From Candidatus Zhuqueibacterota bacterium (GTDB taxonomy: Bacteria; Zhuqueibacterota; Zhuqueibacteria; Residuimicrobiales; Oceaniaggregativiventaceae): a stretch of DNA of 42,995 nucleotides. The DNA lies in contig WJMF01000070.1 in assembly GCA_014728085.1 (NCBI GenBank), positions 1 through 42,995 on the forward strand, written 5' to 3'. The notes under the pieces are model-generated. The model worked only from the letters and a program-made list of their open reading frames with translations. It did not search any database and was not told where the DNA came from. Shown piece by piece: positions 22,079 to 38,319 of this stretch (its first letter is position 1; each line of letters opens with the position of its first letter). The translations under genes were made by a program, and so were the position numbers.

Positions 22079-23062
22079 ATGCACAAACGAGGAATCATCG
22101 TTTTAGGTTGCGTTTTTTTGATGTTTTTAGCGCAATCCTTCCAGGCCAGAGTAATCAACAAACACGTTCACAAACGTTTTCCTGTCAACGAGTCCACCAC
22201 GCTTTTTCTGCAACATGGCAATGCAAGTGTTAACATTATTCCGTGGGAAAAAAACAGCATCGATATACATGTACGTTACCGCTCTTGCTCTCTCTTCCCG
22301 GACGCCGGCAACATAAATGACCTGGCCGTTGAGTTTACCTCAACTCGACAAAAAATATCAGTTATCGGCAAGCTGCAGAACAATTCATCTCCGGATTACC
22401 TTCCGTTGATAAAGTTTGACTGCGAATATACGGTTTATGCGCCGGCGTGGATCAAACTCTGTTTAAGCGGTGGCGATGGAAATGTGCACGTCAAAGACTG
22501 GGAGGCCGAAATTGCCTATATTCTGGAAGATGAAGAGATCGGCATAGATCAATGCGATGAAAGGACAAAACTTTTCATTTCCAGAGGGGAGCTCAGGATT
22601 GATGGCTTGTATGGTTATCTGCTCGTCGAGAGTGCGAATGGCTCTATCGTTCTGTCATCCTGTCAAACGCCGGTTTGCCGGATTCAAATGCGGGATGGAA
22701 ATATCTTCATCAGCCGGTCACAGACGAACACCTCTCTGCCCGGTGCGGCAACAATGCCTGATTTGAAACAAATCGAATCAGCAGAAAGAAATTATTATAC
22801 CTCGGAAGAGGTAGAGATCAGAAATCCATCCGTGATTCAACTTGAGTTTTGCGATCGAGATGGTGACATTTGTGTTGAGCTGGAATATGAGGTATCGACC
22901 ATATTGTCGATAAATTCGAATCAAAACAGTATCTGTCTTTCGATATTAAATCCCGAGAAATTCAGCGACAGCTGGCACCGTATCAGCGGACATGTTTTTG
23001 ATGGAAAGAGCGAGATAAGAATTTCAAGTCATGAAGACAAGGTCACTCTTCGAGGAACCTGA
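22079..23062 (+). CDS. Exported DUF4097/toastrack-like beta-helix protein
   Basis: A 327-residue protein with a signal peptide (MHKRGIIVLGCVFLMFLAQSFQA). The mature region resembles DUF4097 'toastrack' adhesin-like proteins: a start like HKRFPVNESTTLFLQHGNAS VN (glycine-containing GNAxV turn), then regularly spaced strands such as GDGNVHVKDWEA, GELRIDGLYGYLLVESANGSIVLSS and RDGNIFISR, typical of a repetitive beta-solenoid. It is unusually Cys-rich (about 10 Cys) for an exported protein. The start is the ATG at 22079 with GGGAGA 9 nt upstream; an in-frame TTG two codons earlier is too close. A strong terminator follows at 23091. Function unknown. Confidence 0.72.
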   Translation: MHKRGIIVLGCVFLMFLAQSFQARVINKHVHKRFPVNESTTLFLQHGNASVNIIPWEKNSIDIHVRYRSCSLFPDAGNINDLAVEFTSTRQKISVIGKLQNNSSPDYLPLIKFDCEYTVYAPAWIKLCLSGGDGNVHVKDWEAEIAYILEDEEIGIDQCDERTKLFISRGELRIDGLYGYLLVESANGSIVLSSCQTPVCRIQMRDGNIFISRSQTNTSLPGAATMPDLKQIESAERNYYTSEEVEIRNPSVIQLEFCDRDGDICVELEYEVSTILSINSNQNSICLSILNPEKFSDSWHRISGHVFDGKSEIRISSHEDKVTLRGT

Positions 23063-23389: not shown

Positions 23390-24127
23390 CTAGCGCCAGA
23401 ATGTTTTTATATGTAATAAATCACCGGCTTTTTGCAAGCCGACTGGTTCCCGGACATAAAAGGGTTCACCATAGGCGACCCCCATTTTATGTCCCCAGTA
23501 TTGTGCCCGTATACGAATATAGTCAAAGAATTCGGGGCTGCTGATAAAGGTTTGTTCCTGTTCCTTGTTGTTTTCATCGGGATTATAAAATTGAGATTGA
23601 TGTGCCTGAATCGCCTGCAATTTGATCTCAAACGTTTCGGAAATATCGATGATAAAGGAGGGGGTAAAATCATATAACTCCATATAGTAAAACAGATTTT
23701 TCGGGCGGTAATGCTGCTGCCCTGTATCCAGATTTTTCAGGCCGGAAGCAAAAACCGCCTGGCGAACCAGATAGGAGCATTGCGAATGGTCCGGATGACG
23801 GGTTTCCCAGTGGGGCGCCATAACGATTTTGGGCCGGTATTTGCGAAGCGTTTTGATCACCTTGATTTTATTCGCTTCCGAAACATGCACCTGTCCATCC
23901 GGGATGTCCAGGATTTCACCTGTTTTTAAGGACATAATTGCAGTGGCTGTGGTGAATTCTTTTTTTCGATCCTGCGGGGTTCCCCGGGTTCCTGATTCTC
24001 CGCCGGTTAGTGAAATCATTCCCACTTTATATCCTTCCCGAGCGAGTTTCACCAGGGTTCCCGCACACATAATTTCAACATCATCCGGATGCGCTCCGAA
24101 TGCCAGGACATCAAGCTTATCATTCAT
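23390..24127 (-). CDS. bshB1: Bacillithiol biosynthesis deacetylase BshB1
   Basis: BshB1 removes the acetyl group from N-acetylglucosaminyl-malate, the second step of bacillithiol synthesis. The 245-residue protein has the LmbE-like zinc motif AHPDDVE near residue 12, GGESGTRGTPQDRKKE, and HPDHSQC for the third zinc ligand, plus the family ending YGEPFYVREPVGL. The ATG at 24127 overlaps the end of bshC by 8 nt; the frame remains open upstream but that part is the bshC region and does not match the family. Third gene of the methyltransferase-bshC-bshB1 operon. bshA is not in the window. Confidence 0.95.
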   Translation of the reverse strand: MNDKLDVLAFGAHPDDVEIMCAGTLVKLAREGYKVGMISLTGGESGTRGTPQDRKKEFTTATAIMSLKTGEILDIPDGQVHVSEANKIKVIKTLRKYRPKIVMAPHWETRHPDHSQCSYLVRQAVFASGLKNLDTGQQHYRPKNLFYYMELYDFTPSFIIDISETFEIKLQAIQAHQSQFYNPDENNKEQEQTFISSPEFFDYIRIRAQYWGHKMGVAYGEPFYVREPVGLQKAGDLLHIKTFWR

Positions 24128-25727
24128 CAAAGTCAAGCTCCACAAATTTATGGGTAAAGATGTCGAGATCAATATGATCATATATCTTTTCGATCCAACG
24201 GCGTCCGTATTTGCACAAATATTGCACAGCGCTGATCTTGCGTTCCTGTAAATCTCCATCGGGCAGCAGATTATGCTGTAACGATGCGAGTTGTTGTTTG
24301 GTGATTTTTTCTCTGTTGGCAATAGCGTTTTGCACTTTGGTTTCTATCAAATTGATTTGATTTTTTATTGTTTTGCCGGCCCTGTCGATGACCGATTGCA
24401 GAGTGGGATCGGTTTCTTTCACGATATTGGCCAGGGTTTTCAAATCGCCTTCCAGGTGTGTTTGTGTTTTTTCTATGGTTTTTTTCAACTCTTCCGGAAC
24501 CAGATTTTCCAGAATGGATTGCTGGATGTTTTGCGAGTCCTTTATAAAGGAGGACGGCTCAATTCCGAATCGTTTTAAATGTTTCAGGGTTTTGGTTTCA
24601 AGAAGGGTAAAGTCAGCTCTTGGGAAGACCGAGGGCATATGAATTTCAAATTCCCTGTAGACATTTTTTAACTGAGCCCAGTAGGCGATTTCTCCCGGGC
24701 CGGCCACATAAGCGATTGTCGGCAACAAATAATCCTGTACAACAGGCCGCAGAGCTGCTTTGGGGCTTAGTTTTTGTGGTTGGTCGAGCAATTCTTCAAT
24801 ATCGAATGATTTCATCTTAGATAATTCCACCAGGTGTCCGTCTCTGTACTCGAGGCTATGGCGTCCTTGTTGCAATAAAAAGAGTGCGGGGCGTTTATCC
24901 ATAATATCGAGCTGCTGATGGTACCCTTTTTGTTGCAGCCCCTTGTTGTTCTGTGAAATCGCGCCAAAGGTAATCTCTTGACGCAGCTCGCGTTCGAAAA
25001 CCGGCAACGCAAGTGATTTTAGACGACGATCCGATGCATCGAGCAGAATAACCCCGTAATCGGAGAGCAAATGTGCGAACCAGCAGGCAAAGGCATGGGA
25101 AAAGGAGCGTCCTTTCCGGTATTGGCTTTTAAGCGTTTGCAGGATGTCGGTTTTAAACTCGGTATCCATGATTTGGTTGTCCAGCGATTCGATGGTTTTT
25201 TCAATGCTATCGTCCAGAATTATATTCGATACAGGCTGTCGGTCGGGATGGAAATTTTCTGCATAGATGATTTTTTGGTATTGATTTTTTTTGTCGATGA
25301 TACCGGTCCAGCGCACTTCATCGAAATCATGATCTTCTGAAACCATATAAAACACAGGGACGACCGTTCTCTGACAGTTTGTCTGTAATTTTTTTGCGAG
25401 TTTAAGGGTCGTCAGTGCCTTGTAAAATGTATAGAGAGGGCCGCCGAAAAGTCCGACTTGTTGCCCGGTAACCACGGCACGGCTCTCTGGTTCTGCCAGG
25501 CGTTCAATGTTGGCAAGTGTCTTTTTTCCGGAACCGAATTCGCGGTTTTGATCCAATAGTATTTTGGCCAGCTCCTTTCGCGGTTGGTCCTTGATGTTAT
25601 CGATACCTTGTTGTTTGTGTGGATCGCGAAAATCCAGGTTAAAAAAATCTTTGACCCGGTCAAAGTGGTTGATATAATCCTTAACCAGGGATGAACTCGT
25701 TGGAAATCGGGATAGCGTATTAGACAT
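24120..25727 (-). CDS. bshC: Bacillithiol biosynthesis cysteine-adding enzyme BshC
   Basis: BshC joins cysteine to glucosaminyl-malate, the last step of bacillithiol formation. The 535-residue length fits. Characteristic stretches are the early AVVTGQQVGLFGGPLYTFYK, VPVFYMVSEDHDFDEVRW, the mid-protein YVAGPGEIAYWAQLK, and a long coiled coil (about 400-490), then NLLPDGDLQERK near the end. The ATG at 25727 lies in the final codons of the upstream methyltransferase gene (8-nt overlap), and the end overlaps bshB1 by 8 nt, so all three are translationally coupled. Confidence 0.96.
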   Translation of the reverse strand: MSNTLSRFPTSSSLVKDYINHFDRVKDFFNLDFRDPHKQQGIDNIKDQPRKELAKILLDQNREFGSGKKTLANIERLAEPESRAVVTGQQVGLFGGPLYTFYKALTTLKLAKKLQTNCQRTVVPVFYMVSEDHDFDEVRWTGIIDKKNQYQKIIYAENFHPDRQPVSNIILDDSIEKTIESLDNQIMDTEFKTDILQTLKSQYRKGRSFSHAFACWFAHLLSDYGVILLDASDRRLKSLALPVFERELRQEITFGAISQNNKGLQQKGYHQQLDIMDKRPALFLLQQGRHSLEYRDGHLVELSKMKSFDIEELLDQPQKLSPKAALRPVVQDYLLPTIAYVAGPGEIAYWAQLKNVYREFEIHMPSVFPRADFTLLETKTLKHLKRFGIEPSSFIKDSQNIQQSILENLVPEELKKTIEKTQTHLEGDLKTLANIVKETDPTLQSVIDRAGKTIKNQINLIETKVQNAIANREKITKQQLASLQHNLLPDGDLQERKISAVQYLCKYGRRWIEKIYDHIDLDIFTHKFVELDFDE

Positions 25728-26475
25728 TTTTTTGTCCGATCATTACAAGTCTTGCTGATTTTACATCAAAGGGACGGCCTTTATAATCGCCCAATTCGTA
25801 TTTACAGGAAAAACCGGCCTGCTCAAAAAAATGGTACAGCTCCCGGCGGCTATAGGCTCTTACGGATTCCCGGTAGGAGCGCAAACCGAGTTTGTCGCTT
25901 ACAGTGATGGTTTTCTCAATTCTTTTTGTGTCGGGTTTGTAGGCGCGTTCCTGAATGATATGCATGCCGTTTCGATTCGTTTCGCTTTTCGGCTCGAGTT
26001 CGGACAAAACGCGCTCGGTGTTCATATAATCAAAAAACAACCATCCTTTCTCATTCAGAGCATTAAAGGCTTGCCGGATGACCTGAAAATTTTCCTCATC
26101 TGTATCAAAATAACCAAAACTGGTAAATATATTCAGGATCGCATCAAAGCAGCCGATAAAGGGAATTGCGCGCATATCGGCGAGAACAAACCGTACAAGA
26201 CTATTTTCGGTTTTTGATTGTTCCATAGCATGTTTTAGCAGATAATCGGAGAGGTCGAGTCCGACAGCGCGATAATGCCTTCTTGACAATTCCAGGGTGT
26301 GGCGTCCAAAGCCGCAACCGAGATCGAGAATAGTCATACCTCTGCGAACCGGAATAATCTCTTCAAAGAGATCGATGTGTTTTTTGGCTTCAGAGAAATC
26401 GCGATGTGAATATATGGTCAGATAGTCCTGGCGAAATGAGCGCTCATACCAGGGTTTATCTCTTTCTTTACTCAT
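25720..26475 (-). CDS. SAM-dependent methyltransferase, candidate bacillithiol N-methyltransferase
   Basis: A class I methyltransferase of about 251 residues. Motif I is ILDLGCGFGRHTLELSRR near residue 48, followed by an acidic residue GLDLSDY (motif II) and VRFVLADMRAIPF (motif III). The family hallmark PWYERSFRQDYLTIYSHRD stands at the N-terminus. It leads the operon with bshC and bshB1, with an 8-nt overlap. An N-methylated bacillithiol and its methyltransferase (NmbA) have been described in green sulfur bacteria; the context makes this a good candidate for the same step, but I could not align them. The start is uncertain: ATGs at 26475 and 26499 both lack a clear Shine-Dalgarno; I chose 26475 because the recognisable domain begins six residues later. 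A weak promoter TTGATT-N17-CATTAT lies at 26558-26530. Confidence 0.8.
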   Translation of the reverse strand: MSKERDKPWYERSFRQDYLTIYSHRDFSEAKKHIDLFEEIIPVRRGMTILDLGCGFGRHTLELSRRHYRAVGLDLSDYLLKHAMEQSKTENSLVRFVLADMRAIPFIGCFDAILNIFTSFGYFDTDEENFQVIRQAFNALNEKGWLFFDYMNTERVLSELEPKSETNRNGMHIIQERAYKPDTKRIEKTITVSDKLGLRSYRESVRAYSRRELYHFFEQAGFSCKYELGDYKGRPFDVKSARLVMIGQKNV

Positions 26476-26836
26476 TATGGGAGCTTTGTCTTTTGTCATA
26501 AGCGGGGTCAAAGTTCATCTGTTGTTTTTATAATGTAATAAAATCTGTATAAAATCAAAGCCAATTCATGTACCGTCCACTCGAGGAGGGGAGGGATTAA
26601 AATTGTGCATTTTGGGATTTTCTTGTTCCATGAGCGTATTTTACTGGCCGGGAGTTGCTTAAAACCTTGATAATATCTTTGTTAGTTTGTAAATTAAGCG
26701 TAAAATTTTTTGTTACTACGATGTTTACCCCGACGGCACGCAATTCTTGTTCGAGGGCGTTTGGTGCGGGGGATATCAATCCAGTGCATAGACCGGATGA
26801 TTTTAGCCTACTTAACTGTAAAAGGAAACCGAGATT
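26476..26836. other. Gene-free divergent region
   Basis: About 360 bp between the bacillithiol operon (-) and the HAD phosphatase gene (+). I see a weak minus-strand promoter (TTGATT-N17-CATTAT, 26558-26530) and A/T-rich sequence towards the HAD gene. Short open frames here begin with TTG, have no ribosome-binding site and match nothing I recognise. Confidence 0.6.
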
Positions 26837-27475
26837 ATGAATAAAGCATCTCTGATCATTTTCGATCTCGACGGAACCATTGTCGATACTGCAACCGATG
26901 TGCGCAGAGCGATCAACATTGCTCTGAAAGAGGTCGGTTTACCGCCGATATCCTTAAATAAAACAAAGCAGGCCATTGGGCCGGGGCCGGACCGCTTTGC
27001 TCATATTACGCTGGGCGAAGAAAACATGCATTTGCAGAAAGAATTTTTCGATATTTTCCCGGCGATATACTATAACAACAGCGCAGTGAGTTCAAAACCT
27101 TTTGATGGCATTGTCGATGTTTTACAAAAAATACAACTTTCCTGTGCTGTCGCCACCAATAAAATGACCTATGTGAGCCGGCATATTCTCGATGAACTCG
27201 ATCTGGGTAAATATTTTAAACTTGTTGTGGGTCGGGACATGGTTTTAAACCCAAAACCCGATCCTGAACTGCTTTACTATATTTTGTCAAAATCTTCAGT
27301 AAAGGCCCGGAATGCCCTTATGGTGGGGGATACCAATAATGATATCCTGTCGGCACAGGCGGCTGATATACCCACCTGTGCTGTGGAATGGGGATATACA
27401 CCCATTGAGGAGCTCAAAGCGCTTGAACCCGATTATATCATTAAAAAGCCTGAAGATCTATTGAAATTGATTTAA
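26837..27475 (+). CDS. HAD family hydrolase (phosphoglycolate phosphatase-like)
   Basis: A 212-residue cytoplasmic HAD phosphatase. Motif I is IIFDLDGTIVDT (nucleophile D10, D12), motif II is the Thr in VATNK, motif III is the Lys in NPKPDPELL, and motif IV is MVGDTNNDI. The small helical cap between residues 16 and 85 fits the C1-cap subfamily of phosphoglycolate phosphatase (Gph) and related enzymes; the exact substrate is not readable from the motifs. AAAAGGA lies about 10 nt before the ATG. It is followed at a 66-bp gap by a thioesterase gene in the same direction. Confidence 0.9.
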   Translation: MNKASLIIFDLDGTIVDTATDVRRAINIALKEVGLPPISLNKTKQAIGPGPDRFAHITLGEENMHLQKEFFDIFPAIYYNNSAVSSKPFDGIVDVLQKIQLSCAVATNKMTYVSRHILDELDLGKYFKLVVGRDMVLNPKPDPELLYYILSKSSVKARNALMVGDTNNDILSAQAADIPTCAVEWGYTPIEELKALEPDYIIKKPEDLLKLI

Positions 27476-27541
27476 GATTCAATTACAGGATCATTGCTAT
27501 TGTTTTCTGCAACAGACTGTCGTTTTTAGGAGAACGTGAGG

Positions 27542-28048
27542 ATGAGAGATTCCGAGTCAAAAGATAATCAGCGTTATCTTCCCACTTTTAAAGGGTGTCT
27601 GATCTGTGGTGAAAAAGAGGAAAATCCACATACCTGCAATTTGCGCTTCAAGGTTACCGGAGACGGGGTTGAAACTGTTTTTGAACCAAAAGCCGTACAT
27701 CAGGGATATGAAAAGGTCATTCATGGCGGTATGCTCTGTGCGTTATTGGATGAAACGCTTGGCTGGGCGGTCGCGGTTGAGCGCAAGCGGTATTTTATGA
27801 CCGGAGAGCTGACGGTTCGGTTTATTCATCCGTTACCTGTTGGAACCAGAGTTATTGTGCAAGGCCGGTGCAGTGAGAATAAATCGAGATATTCTGTTGC
27901 AGAGGGGGAAATCCTGGATAGCGAGGGCAGGGTGTATGCCCGCGGCAAAGGAAAATTTTTTCTCATGTCCGAAGACCAGGCCAAAAAAGTGGACCGGGTA
28001 ATGACTTATCACAAGGATGATGTTGAGGTATTAAAGGGCAGTGGGTGA
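27542..28048 (+). CDS. PaaI-like hot-dog fold thioesterase
   Basis: A 168-residue acyl-CoA thioesterase-like protein of the 4HBT/PaaI group. A Cys pair near the start (GCLICG) precedes the hot-dog fold, and the core carries the family stretch HGGMLCALLDETLGWAV (catalytic region on the long helix), then ELTVRFIHPLPVGTRVIVQG and a ARGKGKFFLM last strand. The start is the ATG at 27542, since AGGAG lies 9 nt before it; an in-frame GTG two codons earlier is only 3 nt from that site. The gene ends 38 bp before the convergent methyltransferase. Substrate unknown. Confidence 0.85.
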   Translation: MRDSESKDNQRYLPTFKGCLICGEKEENPHTCNLRFKVTGDGVETVFEPKAVHQGYEKVIHGGMLCALLDETLGWAVAVERKRYFMTGELTVRFIHPLPVGTRVIVQGRCSENKSRYSVAEGEILDSEGRVYARGKGKFFLMSEDQAKKVDRVMTYHKDDVEVLKGSG

Positions 28049-28085: not shown

Positions 28086-28673
28086 CTATTCTTTGATCGC
28101 TTCCACCCAATATAAATCCGGGTGTTCCGCGGTTTTACAATCAAAGCCAATTTGCTCCAGTAAAATTTTCAGCTTTTTGGCTAAAGGCAGGATGTCCCGG
28201 CAAACCACGGGATTGAGACTGGAATGAAAATCATTCAGTTTTTTGCTGCAGCAGTTGTGCAGAATCAACAGTTTGCCCTGAGGTTTAAGGACGCGGTATA
28301 TTTCATTTAATGCCTGTTGCGGTTCAAGGATGTGGGGAAATGTCGAATAACAGATAACTTTGTGAAACGTGTTATCACGAAACACCAACTCACAGGCGTC
28401 GGCGCAGATATATTGGGCGGTGTTTCCGAGTTCACTTTGCGCCCGGGTGAGCATTTTTTGGGCGAAATCCAGCGCCACCACCGCCCCGGGCTTTTGAATT
28501 TGTCTGATCAACACCTTGCTCAGCCTTCCGGTTCCGGCGCCGATATCGAGCACCCGATCTGTGGGGTGTATGCCAAAATTCTTTATATGCTTCGCGAGGC
28601 AGGGATCGGTCTGGACGCGATCATTCCATTCCACTGCAATTTCATCAAAATAGTTTCGGTGTGCAAGCGACAT
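28086..28673 (-). CDS. Class I SAM-dependent methyltransferase in nickel-regulated operon
   Basis: A 195-residue UbiE-type methyltransferase. Motif I is VLDIGAGTGRLSKVLI near residue 41, then VVALDFAQKML (motif II acid) and FHKVICYSTFPHI. The late section is Cys- and His-containing (ILHNCCSKKLNDFHSSLNP), which may bind a metal. It is the last gene of the nikR-TonB receptor-ECF-S operon; its start joins the S-component stop as TAATG. I infer a role tied to the imported molecule, for example modifying a metal chelator or corrinoid-like compound; no substrate can be assigned from the sequence. Confidence 0.8.
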   Translation of the reverse strand: MSLAHRNYFDEIAVEWNDRVQTDPCLAKHIKNFGIHPTDRVLDIGAGTGRLSKVLIRQIQKPGAVVALDFAQKMLTRAQSELGNTAQYICADACELVFRDNTFHKVICYSTFPHILEPQQALNEIYRVLKPQGKLLILHNCCSKKLNDFHSSLNPVVCRDILPLAKKLKILLEQIGFDCKTAEHPDLYWVEAIKE

Positions 28674-29182
28674 TAAAATAGCCTTCTGTGGGTTGTACGA
28701 TTTACAAAAACCGGGATGATGAAGAGCATCAGGATAATTCCGGGCAGCCCTTTAATAACCATGATACCCGACGTCAGAGCCGGCGGCAATCCGAGCAATT
28801 CTGCCAGGGGTACGGTGGCGACAAACAGAGCGATGCGGGAGAAAAACAGACCCGCGGCTAACGACCAAAACAGGCCCCATCGATGATGATGGTGAAGATA
28901 ACCGGTGATACTTGCAAGCACTATCAGTTCGACCATAATGAGATGCATGATTGGTGGAGACAGAGGTGGCATGCCAGTGAGCAGAGTAGAGAGCAGGGGG
29001 GTGATCAGGGCAACCGCTGCAGCCACGGGCAGGGAAAGATAAAAAGTTGCCAGCGCAACCGGCCAAAACATCGGCAAAAAAATACTGCCGGCGCCTATAG
29101 CGTGAAAAAGGACAGGAAAGAGCACGCCCAAAGCGATGAACATCCCGGCCAGCGTGACTTGTCTCGTGGGAAATCTCATCAT
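28673..29182 (-). CDS. ECF transporter S-component-like membrane protein
   Basis: A 169-residue inner-membrane protein with five to six hydrophobic segments. It resembles substrate-binding (S) components of energy-coupling factor transporters: an N-terminal ALGVLFPVLFHAIG-type helix and the loop GMPPLSPP after the third segment. A His run (LHHHHRW) follows the fourth segment and could bind metal. Energy-coupling T and A subunits are absent here, so it would need a shared ECF module elsewhere. The ATG overlaps the TonB receptor stop as TAATG, and its own stop overlaps the methyltransferase ATG the same way. It may carry a metal, metal chelate or vitamin across the inner membrane; the context favours nickel-related cargo. 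Confidence 0.72.
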   Translation of the reverse strand: MMRFPTRQVTLAGMFIALGVLFPVLFHAIGAGSIFLPMFWPVALATFYLSLPVAAAVALITPLLSTLLTGMPPLSPPIMHLIMVELIVLASITGYLHHHHRWGLFWSLAAGLFFSRIALFVATVPLAELLGLPPALTSGIMVIKGLPGIILMLFIIPVFVNRTTHRRLF

Positions 29183-31023
29183 TATCTATACTTAAAAAGA
29201 AGTTCCATCATGAACGTTCTGCCCGGCATCGGATAGAATGGTTTTATTTCATACTCTACATCAAGCAGGTTTTTTAACGAAACAGCGAGGTCGACGAAAC
29301 GGACAAGCTTGAATGTTGATTTGAGGTCGACCACTGTATAATCATCCAACGGCATTTTGTGATTGTCCATGGCATAAAGATCCATAATATGAATGGCGTT
29401 TGCCTGTAAACTCAAACGCGGCCACTGGTAGGAGAACGTCAGCGTCAGTTTCTTTCCCGGGGTTTCTCTGGTTTCGTTCTGAAGATCCAGTTTGGTCCAG
29501 GTAGACGCCACCTGAAAATGTCTTGTCGGTGCCATCTGCAGAGAGAGTTCGTAACCGCTGTGAACAAAGTCGCCGGAATTGGTAAATTGCATAGCCGGCG
29601 GAACACCGACAATTCGGATCATATTACTGCCTTTTGAGCGAAAAAGAGCAGCGTCGAAAATACCCCAGCTCCCCAGATGCTGTGATATACCGATTTCATA
29701 GTTCCATAAACGTTCAGGTTGAAGGTTTTCGTTTCTGGGGGGGAAAACGTACAGTTCCCGTATTGCCGGACTGCGAAATCCTTTTGCTGCGGAAAACCGT
29801 ACTGAAAAATTCTTGTTGAGATGGGTAACCAGGCCGATTTTGGGAATCCACTCATTGCCGTAGAGCTGATGATTTTCAGTGCGCAGGCCGGCAGAGAGGA
29901 TAAAACGGTTGTACAAAAGCTGCTGCATGTGAATATAGGGGGCAAATTCGGTGATGCTTTGTGCCCCGTATTGGATCCATGGATATTGGATAACGCTGTC
30001 CCTGGCATCTCCTCCATATTGTTTATAATCAAACCCGACCGTTGCGGAATGACCGCGCCAGAATGAGGTATTGTGGTAGAGCATGACGCCGATGGTGTGA
30101 TCGTTTGAGCGCCAGCCGTCAAAAATTTTATGGCGTCCCCAATTTCCATGAACCCTCAGGTAGGATTCGCCATATTTGTGCGCATGTGAAAGCGTCAGAT
30201 CGGCACCGGAACGCCTGAGGTCGTACCACTGGTCTGTTGGAGTGGTTGTCAGTGTGTCCGGCCCCGGATCTTTCAGATAAATATTGGAAAGATTTGCATT
30301 GAGGCTGATTTTGGTATTGTGATTGAGTTCATATCCAAGATGGGCGGTGTACGTATCGCCTTCGTAATCGGCATTCGGCCGGTGGCCATCCGTCTGCCGG
30401 TTTGCCGCTGTCAGATTATAATTAAAATTATCGATTTTGCCACCGTGTGAGCCGAGGAGTTTTTTGGTTTGATAGTTGCCCATACCGCCGATAACACGGG
30501 TGGTAAATCCGTTTTGTTGCCGTTTTTGCGAAACGATATTAATGACGCCGCCCATGGCATTGGTGCCGTAGAGGAATGAAGCGGGTCCCCGAACCACTTC
30601 TATGCGTTCAACACCGTCAAGCGTATAGGCATCCGGAATGGGATGCCCCATCATTCCCATAATATCCGGCCGGCCATCCCGCAGTACCAGAACCCCGGTC
30701 ACCGGAGAGCCGCCGATTCCGCGTATGCTGATTTCTCCGGCAGCGGCGGATGCCACACCATATCCCATGATCGATTTTTGGGTGATATAGACGCCGGGTA
30801 CATAACTGGTAACCAGATCCATTGCCGAGTGGGTTGCGGCTCGCCGGATGGTTTGCTGATCGATAACCGTTACGCTGGAAGCGAGCTCTTTTTGCGCCCC
30901 GGCAATTTTGGTGGCGGTAACCACTACCGGATCAAATCGATATTTGACCGAGTCGCTTTCTGATTCCGCAAAAACTGTTGCAACCGGGAGGAAAGCGATG
31001 CTTAAGAATATAAAAAATCTCAT
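29182..31023 (-). CDS. TonB-dependent outer-membrane receptor, probably nickel-regulated
   Basis: A 613-residue receptor. Signal peptide residues 1-19 (MRFFIFLSIAFLPVATVFA). The TonB-box-like FDPVVVTATK lies near residue 30, then the plug with VEVVRGPASFLYGTNAMGGVI-type features (RIEVVRGP and LYGTNAMGG), and a 22-strand-type barrel ending in an aromatic strand (FMMELLFKYR). The plug holds a Met/His-rich loop (DIMGMMGHPIPDAY) that could contact metal. A GAGGA site lies 6 nt before the ATG. The nikR stop lies 21 bp upstream, so both belong to one transcript. It probably imports a nickel chelate or other scarce cofactor across the outer membrane; the substrate is inferred from regulation only. 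Confidence 0.9.
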   Translation of the reverse strand: MRFFIFLSIAFLPVATVFAESESDSVKYRFDPVVVTATKIAGAQKELASSVTVIDQQTIRRAATHSAMDLVTSYVPGVYITQKSIMGYGVASAAAGEISIRGIGGSPVTGVLVLRDGRPDIMGMMGHPIPDAYTLDGVERIEVVRGPASFLYGTNAMGGVINIVSQKRQQNGFTTRVIGGMGNYQTKKLLGSHGGKIDNFNYNLTAANRQTDGHRPNADYEGDTYTAHLGYELNHNTKISLNANLSNIYLKDPGPDTLTTTPTDQWYDLRRSGADLTLSHAHKYGESYLRVHGNWGRHKIFDGWRSNDHTIGVMLYHNTSFWRGHSATVGFDYKQYGGDARDSVIQYPWIQYGAQSITEFAPYIHMQQLLYNRFILSAGLRTENHQLYGNEWIPKIGLVTHLNKNFSVRFSAAKGFRSPAIRELYVFPPRNENLQPERLWNYEIGISQHLGSWGIFDAALFRSKGSNMIRIVGVPPAMQFTNSGDFVHSGYELSLQMAPTRHFQVASTWTKLDLQNETRETPGKKLTLTFSYQWPRLSLQANAIHIMDLYAMDNHKMPLDDYTVVDLKSTFKLVRFVDLAVSLKNLLDVEYEIKPFYPMPGRTFMMELLFKYR

Positions 31024-35160: not shown

Positions 35161-38100
35161 ATGAAGAAATCTATGTTACAGCTCGCGTTTGTAGCTCTTT
35201 TGGTCTATGTGTTTCTGCCCATGGCAGCGATTGCACAATTCGACGTTGCAGAGGGATTTGAGCTCGTCTGGACACTGGATCCAAGAGAACACACGGACTT
35301 GTTTCCGCGTGGACCGGCTTTTGGCGCCAAGATGGTCGAGGTCGGTATGGATATGGATAACGATGGTAAAAAAGAAATTTTGTTTACCACCGATGAAACC
35401 CTGGCACCTTATGGTCCCGACCCGGGATATCTCGATATCTACCTTTTCGAGGCATTAGGTGATAATGATTATGGATACGTTTGGCATTACACCATGCCGG
35501 AGGGTAGCAACTCTTTAGCCGCCCTGGATTATGGCGACATGGATCAGGATGGCAAGTGGGAAATCTTTTTCGGCGTTCCCACCATCGACAATGCGAACAA
35601 ATTGTTTGTCTTTGAACAGGATGCTGCCGGTGTCTTTCCGGATGCCCCGACGGTAACCTGGGATTACGACCGCGATGCCGCTCTGGATTTCAGACCGTCC
35701 GGATTTCAGCTTGCCGATGTTGATGGCGATGGCGAGATAGAACTGGTTACCCAGTCGCGCACCAGTGGCCGTCGTGAGCTCGTGGTGGCTTCTCTGGCAA
35801 CGGAAGGGCTGGATGAATTTGCTGATTTTAAAATCGAATTTGAGGCTGGTGAAGATCTTCTCGGCGGCGGTGCCCCTTATGATGTCGACGTTTATGATTT
35901 TGACGGCGACGGGTTGATGGAAATCTGGTACAATACCTGGGACAAGTTCAGTTTTGCGATTTTTGAAGCAGTAGAAGCAGATTCTTACGCTTTACAGGTA
36001 GACTTGAACCAGTTGTTCGATGACAGTGATCCCGGCTCCTTCAATAGCCATAAATTGCACATCCTGGATATCGACGATGATGGCTTGATGGAAGCCTGGT
36101 TTCCAATGAGTAACGGCAAGCTCTATTTTCTCGATGATGATGAAGATGTTTCTACATTGACCGCGGATAATTTTGTTGAGGTTGGCAGCTTTATGCCGAC
36201 ACCGACCATGGCTGCCCGTGGCAGCGATGTCGGGGATATCGATGATGACGGCATGCTCGATATTATTGCCACGCACGGAACCGGCGAAAAAGTGTCGCGT
36301 ATTGAATATCTGGGTATCGGCTCTCCGGCTGATTCGAGCAGTTACGAATGGAGTATCCTGCTGGAAAGTGAAGGCGAACCGACGGAACGCTATTATCCCA
36401 GTCGTATCGCTCCGATGGATCTGGATGGCGATGGCTTTAAAGAGGTGGTGTTGACAAATCTCTACGCCAGTGAAGAGGGTCAGCCTTTGATTATGGTTCT
36501 GGAATACACTCCGGAAACCGCGGAAAAAATGGCGTATGAATGGCAAGTCGGTAGCACCCTGCATCACCAGGACGTTGATTCGCTTTTTGCTTCCGATTTT
36601 TCCGGCAACAGCCGTACGGCTATCGCCGGCATGGATTTGGACCAGGATGGTGCCAAAGAAGTTATAGTAAATGATTATGTCTCTGCCGGCGTTCATGTTT
36701 TTGAATACGACGCTGTTAATGATGTATTTGAATTAAAATGGTCTTCACCGGTGGATACTGTAAACAACAGAAATTCCTACAACCCGCGTACGGTTGTGGT
36801 CGGCGATATGGATACCGACGGAAGATGGGAAATCATTTTCCCGCGAGCCTCGGATCCCTCCGGCTGGTATGTCTATGAATGGGATGGCGTTGTCGGCAGT
36901 GATAATTACGGAACCGTTTACTCTTCGATTATCGATGCGGAAATTGATGTTTGTTGCGCTTCGGACCCGACGGCTTTTCGCGGTGACCATGAAGCAGCCG
37001 ACATTTGCGATGTTGACGGCGACGGACAGCAGGAGCTGCTGGTGGGTATCCGCAGAAATGCTTCCGGCGGTCAACGCGGTACATTGATCGTTCATTGTGA
37101 AGGTGGCATTGATTTTGAAGCTGCCGGTGGTGGCTTTGAGACCTGGGTGGCTGAATTTTTTGTCGATCGCGGACTTTACGGCGGTGGCTCGCCCTATCAG
37201 TCCTTACCGGCGGATCTGGATGGCGACGGTACCTGGGAAATCGTCAACCATACCTGGAACAATTTCAACTTTTATAATGTCGACGTTCTGGGTGCGGATT
37301 CCTATCAGGCACCGGATACGGCCGCAGCCAACACGAAAAAGAATGTCAAACTCACCTCCGATGACGATGTCGCCTTGTTTGGTGGCGGGGCCGGCGATAT
37401 CGACGGCAATGGTGACGACGAAGTTTTCTTTCCAAGTTTTTATAGCGGCGATATGTGGATTATCGATTATGAAGCGGGCGACAATGTGCTAAATATCGAC
37501 GAGTCCCATGCCGCTAAAATTGTTCCCGGTATCGGCAGTGCGGCTGGAACGTTTCATGCCAGCGTCTATGACGTAGACAAGAACGGCAGAGCCAATCTTT
37601 TCTGCGGCTCGACATTTCCGCGTACCATCACCAGCACCGAATTAATCGGTGATGATCCGCGCGATCCGGCACATTATCAAACCAGTGTTATCTATACCGG
37701 TGAACCGGATGTTTTCAGAAATATCACTGTTGTTGACTCGGCCGGTGTGGTGACGACGAGCAAGTCGAACACTGGCGCATTCGCTTCCAAGGTTCAATCT
37801 CATTTTATGGGTGAAGCCCTTGATTTCGACGATGACGGTCAATTTGAGCTCGTCGCCAGTTTTCAGGGCAATCAGGACAGCATTACCACCACGACCTATA
37901 CCTGGAATGTAAATGAGGCGGACTGGGACACAACGGTGAACAAAGTCGTCAATCCCAAGAGCTGGGCGATGATGCGCTTTGAATTTACCGGTATGGCTAC
38001 CGGCGTGGTTGCGAATGAAATGCGCTTCATTACGCCTGAAGATTATGTCCTCAAACATAATTATCCCAATCCGTTCAACCCCTCGACCACGATCGAATAC

Positions 38101-38319
38101 GCTTTGCCGATTCGCAAGCAGATTTCGGTCAAGGTCTATAATATCATGGGTCAGCTGGTGCGCACGTTGGTGGACAATCAACTGCAGACGGCCGGCACCC
38201 ATAAGGTCATGTGGGATGGCAAGAACGAAAACGGTGTCTCTGTTTCCTCCGGCACTTATCTCTATACCCTTGAATTCGGCAATTTTAGAAAATCACATCA
38301 GATGACACTGATCAAATAA
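35161..38319 (+). CDS. Large secreted FG-GAP/VCBS-like repeat protein with T9SS sorting domain
   Basis: A 1052-residue secreted protein. Signal peptide residues 1-25 (MKKSMLQLAFVALLV...AIAQ). The body carries at least ten Ca-binding-like Asp motifs of the FG-GAP/integrin-propeller type, such as DMDNDGKKEILF, DVDGDGEIELV, DFDGDGLMEIWY, DIDDDGLMEAWF, DLDGDGFKEVVL and DVDGDGQQELLVG, suggesting two or more beta-propellers. From about residue 960 comes the T9SS type A domain (NYPNPFNPSTTIEYALPI to MTLIK). AAAGGAG lies 8 nt before the ATG. A strong terminator follows, so it is monocistronic. It is probably surface-exposed and adhesive or carbohydrate-binding; the ligand is unknown. It is strongly acidic, rich in Asp. 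Confidence 0.9.
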   Translation: MKKSMLQLAFVALLVYVFLPMAAIAQFDVAEGFELVWTLDPREHTDLFPRGPAFGAKMVEVGMDMDNDGKKEILFTTDETLAPYGPDPGYLDIYLFEALGDNDYGYVWHYTMPEGSNSLAALDYGDMDQDGKWEIFFGVPTIDNANKLFVFEQDAAGVFPDAPTVTWDYDRDAALDFRPSGFQLADVDGDGEIELVTQSRTSGRRELVVASLATEGLDEFADFKIEFEAGEDLLGGGAPYDVDVYDFDGDGLMEIWYNTWDKFSFAIFEAVEADSYALQVDLNQLFDDSDPGSFNSHKLHILDIDDDGLMEAWFPMSNGKLYFLDDDEDVSTLTADNFVEVGSFMPTPTMAARGSDVGDIDDDGMLDIIATHGTGEKVSRIEYLGIGSPADSSSYEWSILLESEGEPTERYYPSRIAPMDLDGDGFKEVVLTNLYASEEGQPLIMVLEYTPETAEKMAYEWQVGSTLHHQDVDSLFASDFSGNSRTAIAGMDLDQDGAKEVIVNDYVSAGVHVFEYDAVNDVFELKWSSPVDTVNNRNSYNPRTVVVGDMDTDGRWEIIFPRASDPSGWYVYEWDGVVGSDNYGTVYSSIIDAEIDVCCASDPTAFRGDHEAADICDVDGDGQQELLVGIRRNASGGQRGTLIVHCEGGIDFEAAGGGFETWVAEFFVDRGLYGGGSPYQSLPADLDGDGTWEIVNHTWNNFNFYNVDVLGADSYQAPDTAAANTKKNVKLTSDDDVALFGGGAGDIDGNGDDEVFFPSFYSGDMWIIDYEAGDNVLNIDESHAAKIVPGIGSAAGTFHASVYDVDKNGRANLFCGSTFPRTITSTELIGDDPRDPAHYQTSVIYTGEPDVFRNITVVDSAGVVTTSKSNTGAFASKVQSHFMGEALDFDDDGQFELVASFQGNQDSITTTTYTWNVNEADWDTTVNKVVNPKSWAMMRFEFTGMATGVVANEMRFITPEDYVLKHNYPNPFNPSTTIEYALPIRKQISVKVYNIMGQLVRTLVDNQLQTAGTHKVMWDGKNENGVSVSSGTYLYTLEFGNFRKSHQMTLIK

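Follow-up and report, generated by a model that had tools for sequence, protein, structure and literature searches.

Organization of the bsh operon

The window analysed here comprises 42,995 nucleotides from Candidatus Zhuqueibacterota bacterium (assembly GCA_014728085.1, contig WJMF01000070.1, positions 1 to 42,995 of the forward strand). On its minus strand, three consecutive genes occupy positions 23390–26475, coordinates that an earlier sequence-only reading of this DNA had given correctly. The first gene of the operon (25720..26475) encodes a 251-residue NmbA ortholog, a SAM-dependent enzyme and predicted bacillithiol N-methyltransferase, in a frame that runs from an ATG at 26475 to a TAA at 25722–25720. 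It is followed by bshC (24120..25727; 535 residues), which encodes the cysteine-adding enzyme of bacillithiol synthesis, matches TIGR03998 as well as PF10079 and PF24850, and extends from an ATG at 25727, inside the methyltransferase frame, to a TGA at 24122–24120. The third gene, bshB1 (23390..24127; 245 residues; TIGR04001), encodes the GlcNAc-malate deacetylase, beginning with an ATG at 24127 and ending at 23390. A mechanical list of open reading frames gave longer forms of the methyltransferase and of BshB1, with TTG starts at 26511 and 24322, respectively; homologs favour the shorter ATG starts of both.

Adjacent genes overlap by 8 nt at each junction, as the same reading had claimed. The nmbA/bshC overlap is ATGTCTAA (25720..25727, minus strand) and the bshC/bshB1 overlap is ATGAATGA (24120..24127, minus strand). 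Together with the orientation of the genes, these overlaps suggest that the methyltransferase, BshC and BshB1 are produced together. Upstream, a gene for a HAD-family phosphatase starts at 26837 on the plus strand, while downstream a DUF4097-like protein, whose Pfam match falls just under the cut-off, is encoded on the plus strand and ends at 23062. The divergent orientation of the former and the convergent orientation of the latter suggest that the operon consists of these three genes only.

The HAD phosphatase gene (26837–27475), divergent from nmbA, is followed by a hotdog thioesterase gene (27536–28048). In L034, L038, L039 and L044, too, the HAD gene lies near nmbA in divergent orientation, and L038 and L044 also have the hotdog gene nearby. 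Farther along, a tight row of minus-strand genes (28086–31023) encodes a TonB-dependent receptor, an ECF-type substrate-binding membrane protein and a second class I methyltransferase, and looks like a unit for the uptake of a small cofactor or metal. Matches to type IX secretion tails at 35161–38319 were below the cut-offs and are compatible with an FCB lineage.

Pathway and recycling genes in the genome

The genome holds the complete N-methyl-bacillithiol (N-Me-BSH) gene set, namely bshA, bshB1, bshC and nmbA. TIGR03998 matched BshC at 472.7–472.9 bits (cut-off 265.8) and TIGR04001 matched BshB1 at 269–269.9 bits (cut-off 182.5), each being the only match in the genome. A separate contig, C136, carries bshA (534 bits; cut-off 273.7). 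Chlorobaculum tepidum likewise has bshA, bshB and bshC besides nmbA; the locus tags of its four genes, CT0548, CT1040, CT1419 and CT1558, are widely spaced (PMC12719100; PMC6282198), in contrast to the nmbA-led three-gene operon of the window.

Within this assembly, which is 97.9% complete, no YpdA/Bdr exceeded the cut-off (best 89.6 bits vs 339.9) and no match to a bacilliredoxin of the YphP/YqiW family was obtained. Among 60 relatives, YpdA was over the cut-off in 8 of 17 NmbA genomes vs 11 of 18 BshC genomes without NmbA, and the idea that Bdr tracks NmbA in the phylum was rejected on these counts. Two further NmbA genomes (G014 and G051) have a YpdA match that is broken or lies at a contig end.

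The methyltransferase belongs to the NmbA clade

Generic Pfam and NCBIfam models identified the protein only as a class I methyltransferase, with no NCBIfam equivalog over its cut-off. When compared with solved structures in the PDB, its best match was 9RI2 (E 2.5e-45, 158 bits; runner-up 64 bits), the crystal structure of C. tepidum NmbA (CtNmbA, CT1040) (PMC12719100), with the alignment spanning residues 18–258 of 263 in the query and 13–258 of 266 in the chain. The two proteins are thus homologous almost end to end and share 36% identity (88/246 in a 246-column local alignment), similar to the 37% between a Paenibacillus NmbA and CtNmbA; identity between the window protein and a Paenibacillus NmbA (L082, which is not P. 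polymyxa itself) is likewise 37%. Reciprocally, the top match of CtNmbA in this genome was the window gene (154 bits; next match 66.5), and across the 60 relatives CtNmbA matched 17 genomes at 126–172 bits before scores dropped to 95. Published criteria for NmbA homology are E < 1e-20, coverage > 80%, identity > 25% and similar length, and the E-value, coverage, identity and length of the window protein all lie within them.

We then placed the protein in a maximum-likelihood tree of 77 rows, comprising 66 rows of the NmbA clade and an outgroup of 11 (10 chosen paralogs and one Coatesbacteria match). The window protein grouped with CtNmbA (Chlorobiota) and with NmbA of Paenibacillus and Bacteroidota, apart from paralogs of its own phylum. 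In this tree, support for the split between the NmbA clade and the paralogs was 91/94, which is not fully decisive, and the deep forks within the clade are unsettled. Residue conservation follows the same division: Y22, F117, E203 and V205 are invariant in all 66 NmbA-clade rows and rare in the outgroup (2/11, 1/11, 0/11 and 1/11, respectively), and R25 and K188 each occur in 65/66 clade rows vs 0/11 and 1/11 outgroup rows. The window protein retains SAM motif I along with the clade residues R25, F117, K188 and E203, and its Y122/F123 correspond to CtNmbA Y134/F135, which have been named for the SAM adenine (PMC12719100). Further motifs common to both proteins are YxHR, FTSFGYF (FSSFGYF in CtNmbA) and ESVR, as well as R242 of the C-terminal (S/T)PR motif, where the window protein reads SAR. 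On this evidence from sequence, the window methyltransferase is an NmbA ortholog.

A model predicted for the protein (pLDDT 95) had 9ri2_A as its best Foldseek chain (E 1e-23); in VIA-align, 9RI2 (Z 27.6) and 3D2L (Z 27.9) scored alike, with further ties, and AlphaFold reportedly mispredicts the NmbA cap domain, which has a narrow-basket topology in the crystal (PMC12719100). Because the fold is common to many class I methyltransferases, structure comparison was left out of the decision on membership.

Two kinds of NmbA-like protein fell outside the clade. The Coatesbacteria methyltransferase (L127), which came from the scan of named genomes, branches with the paralogs, and its placement indicates that similarity searches alone may over-call NmbA. 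Five loci of the same phylum (L050:7667-9562, L165:1550-3403, L051, L166 and L168) encode proteins of ~610–650 residues in which an NmbA-like but distinct methyltransferase is joined to extra sequence; in L050 and L165, the only two scanned, the fusion partner is a D-Ala-D-Ala ligase-like ATP-grasp domain. These fused methyltransferases were considered as NmbA relatives of the same pathway and rejected, since they too branch with the paralogs.

nmbA co-occurs with and adjoins bshC

We called NmbA in 82 genomes of the phylum at a threshold of at least 300 bits, the next match being at 177. NmbA was present in 18 genomes, all of which have BshC, and in 0 of the 42 genomes without BshC (Fisher p 1.9e-7, a value that ignores shared ancestry). 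The 42 latter genomes have neither gene, and 22 of the 40 BshC genomes are devoid of NmbA, for which plain bacillithiol is predicted.

Beyond co-occurrence, the phylum has 17 other genomes with NmbA, and in 14 of them bshC comes immediately after nmbA, so the gene order is not a matter of chance. The nmbA–bshC junction overlaps in 11 of 13 cases measured with mechanically picked start codons, and bshB1 follows within ~130 nt of bshC in 10 of the 14 linked genomes. An apparent BshC–BshB1 fusion in L039, called by a script, proved to be an artefact, as a TGA separates the two frames. The three unlinked genomes (G025, G038 and G079, corresponding to L048, L049 and L167) belong to one family and carry bshC on a separate contig; in the tree their NmbA falls outside the operon-linked group and perhaps represents a second lineage in the phylum that was gained separately.

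The same arrangement recurs well outside the phylum. At 18 of 80 named loci, bshC adjoins nmbA on the same strand, and at least seven further phyla are represented among them: Planctomycetota, Lentisphaerota, Acidobacteriota, Gemmatimonadota, Hydrogenedentota, Krumholzibacteriota and Electryoneota, in addition to some that are unassigned. The count combines 16 loci with tblastn matches starting downstream of nmbA and two (L056 and L079) recovered by profile search; stop-to-stop frames give 7 linked loci, which is an undercount. The remainder consists of 59 loci without BshC in the DNA around nmbA and 3 that end too early. As in the window, nmbA is followed by bshC and then bshB in six MAG clusters (L053, L058, L063, L072, L085 and L092) from Planctomycetota, Lentisphaerota, Acidobacteriota, Krumholzibacteriota and Electryoneota, and L101, L102 and L129, of unassigned phylum, have the same order. 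Nine named loci read nmbA, bshC, bshB, bshA; in such MAG clusters bshA comes last, whereas in the window's genome it is on another contig. Among the 80 named loci, the link is absent from all those of Bacteroidota, Bacillota, Chlorobiota and Ignavibacteriota; eight Bacillota nmbA genes (seven from Paenibacillus, one from Anoxybacillus) differ from the window in having no bshC in the surrounding DNA. Recurrence of the link in several phyla provides genomic support for the role of NmbA that is independent of sequence similarity. In the freely readable main text of the N-Me-BSH papers covered, the word "operon" is absent, and a literature search for a bacillithiol operon with bshC and a methyltransferase led to papers that, judging by their listing, deal with other subjects; within this scope, the link may be undescribed.

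Proposed route to N-methyl-bacillithiol

According to the established pathway (PMC6282198), BshA, encoded elsewhere in the genome, would join GlcNAc and malate, BshB1 would remove the acetyl group from GlcNAc-malate, and BshC would add cysteine to yield bacillithiol. The NmbA ortholog would then transfer a methyl group from SAM to the cysteine nitrogen of bacillithiol in its reduced form, the only form on which NmbA is reported to act by Hammerstad et al. (PMC12719100). The overlapping frames probably couple translation, such that the methylase would be made alongside BshC, the supplier of its substrate. We hold it to be highly probable that this operon supplies the enzymes for the last steps of N-Me-BSH synthesis, with an NmbA ortholog as its methyltransferase. 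NmbA orthology, co-occurrence with BshC, linkage to bshC and the presence of bshA further indicate that the organism very probably makes N-Me-BSH, which may be its main thiol.

An enzyme of the NmbA clade might nonetheless act elsewhere in the pathway, on the glucosamine nitrogen of GlcN-malate, on a malate carboxyl or on the cysteine nitrogen a second time, and so give rise to a different methylated thiol. Because the gene shares its operon with bshC and bshB1, an intermediate could serve as substrate; identity to CtNmbA is only 36%; and a further methylation is not chemically far-fetched, given that a secondary amine by-product was methylated in vitro by Hammerstad et al. (PMC12719100). Set against this are the clade-invariant residues that the window protein has in common with CtNmbA, and a clade in which CtNmbA, itself assayed, stands together with Paenibacillus, the genus whose P. 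polymyxa enzyme has been assayed; we regard an altered site or step as improbable. The matches to general Pfam and NCBIfam models, with no equivalog among them, would also suit a generic small-molecule methyltransferase that is merely a translational hitch-hiker in the bsh operon. A hitch-hiker accounts poorly for a bshC link that recurs in several phyla, for the confinement of NmbA to BshC genomes among the 82, and for an NmbA-specific match whose bit score is over double that of the runner-up, and we consider it less probable still. As many BshC genomes of the phylum do without NmbA, the copy could be decayed or non-expressed and the cell could make plain bacillithiol, but the intact frame, its overlap with bshC and the retained SAM-binding and clade-specific residues make this scarcely credible.

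Synthesis of N-Me-BSH from bacillithiol thus remains the preferred interpretation. Counting against it are the lack of YpdA/Bdr and YphP/YqiW matches in the genome, the 22 BshC genomes that do without NmbA, and the three genomes of the phylum and the loci of several other phyla in which nmbA is unlinked to bshC. The sequence-only reading had predicted a methylated thiol in this lineage and had proposed clustering with NmbA and co-occurrence with bshC as checks; the PDB match, the reciprocal match, the tree and the residues bear out the first, and the presence of BshC in 18/18 NmbA genomes of the one phylum surveyed (82 genomes) the second, so that both lend support to the predicted thiol. Its statement that green sulfur bacteria are the only described source of methylated bacillithiol is out of date. 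Deletion of nmbA in C. tepidum abolishes N-Me-BSH in vivo (PMC6282198), and the compound has also been measured in Polaribacter sp. MED152 (Hiras et al. 2018; PMC6282198); NmbA of Paenibacillus polymyxa has been assayed in vitro, and 1765 species have been counted that possess all the genes and are predicted to have the pathway (Hammerstad et al. 2025; PMC12719100). As N-Me-BSH was already placed beyond green sulfur bacteria by these sources, the prediction for the window extends a known pattern.

This family of methylating enzymes had already been described in green sulfur bacteria and in many others, and what is added here is one more lineage and a possibly undescribed operon arrangement. 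A broader proposition, which we put forward tentatively and think rather unlikely as a whole, is that the nmbA-led bsh operon is widespread outside Bacteroidota, Bacillota and Chlorobiota, that N-Me-BSH would be an obligatory rather than an optional end product there, and that in the window's genome, which has no known Bdr or bacilliredoxins, the thiol would be recycled by another reductase. The predicted N-Me-BSH pathway now reaches one more genome lineage, and the linked genomes are candidates in which to seek both the methylated thiol and the missing reductase.
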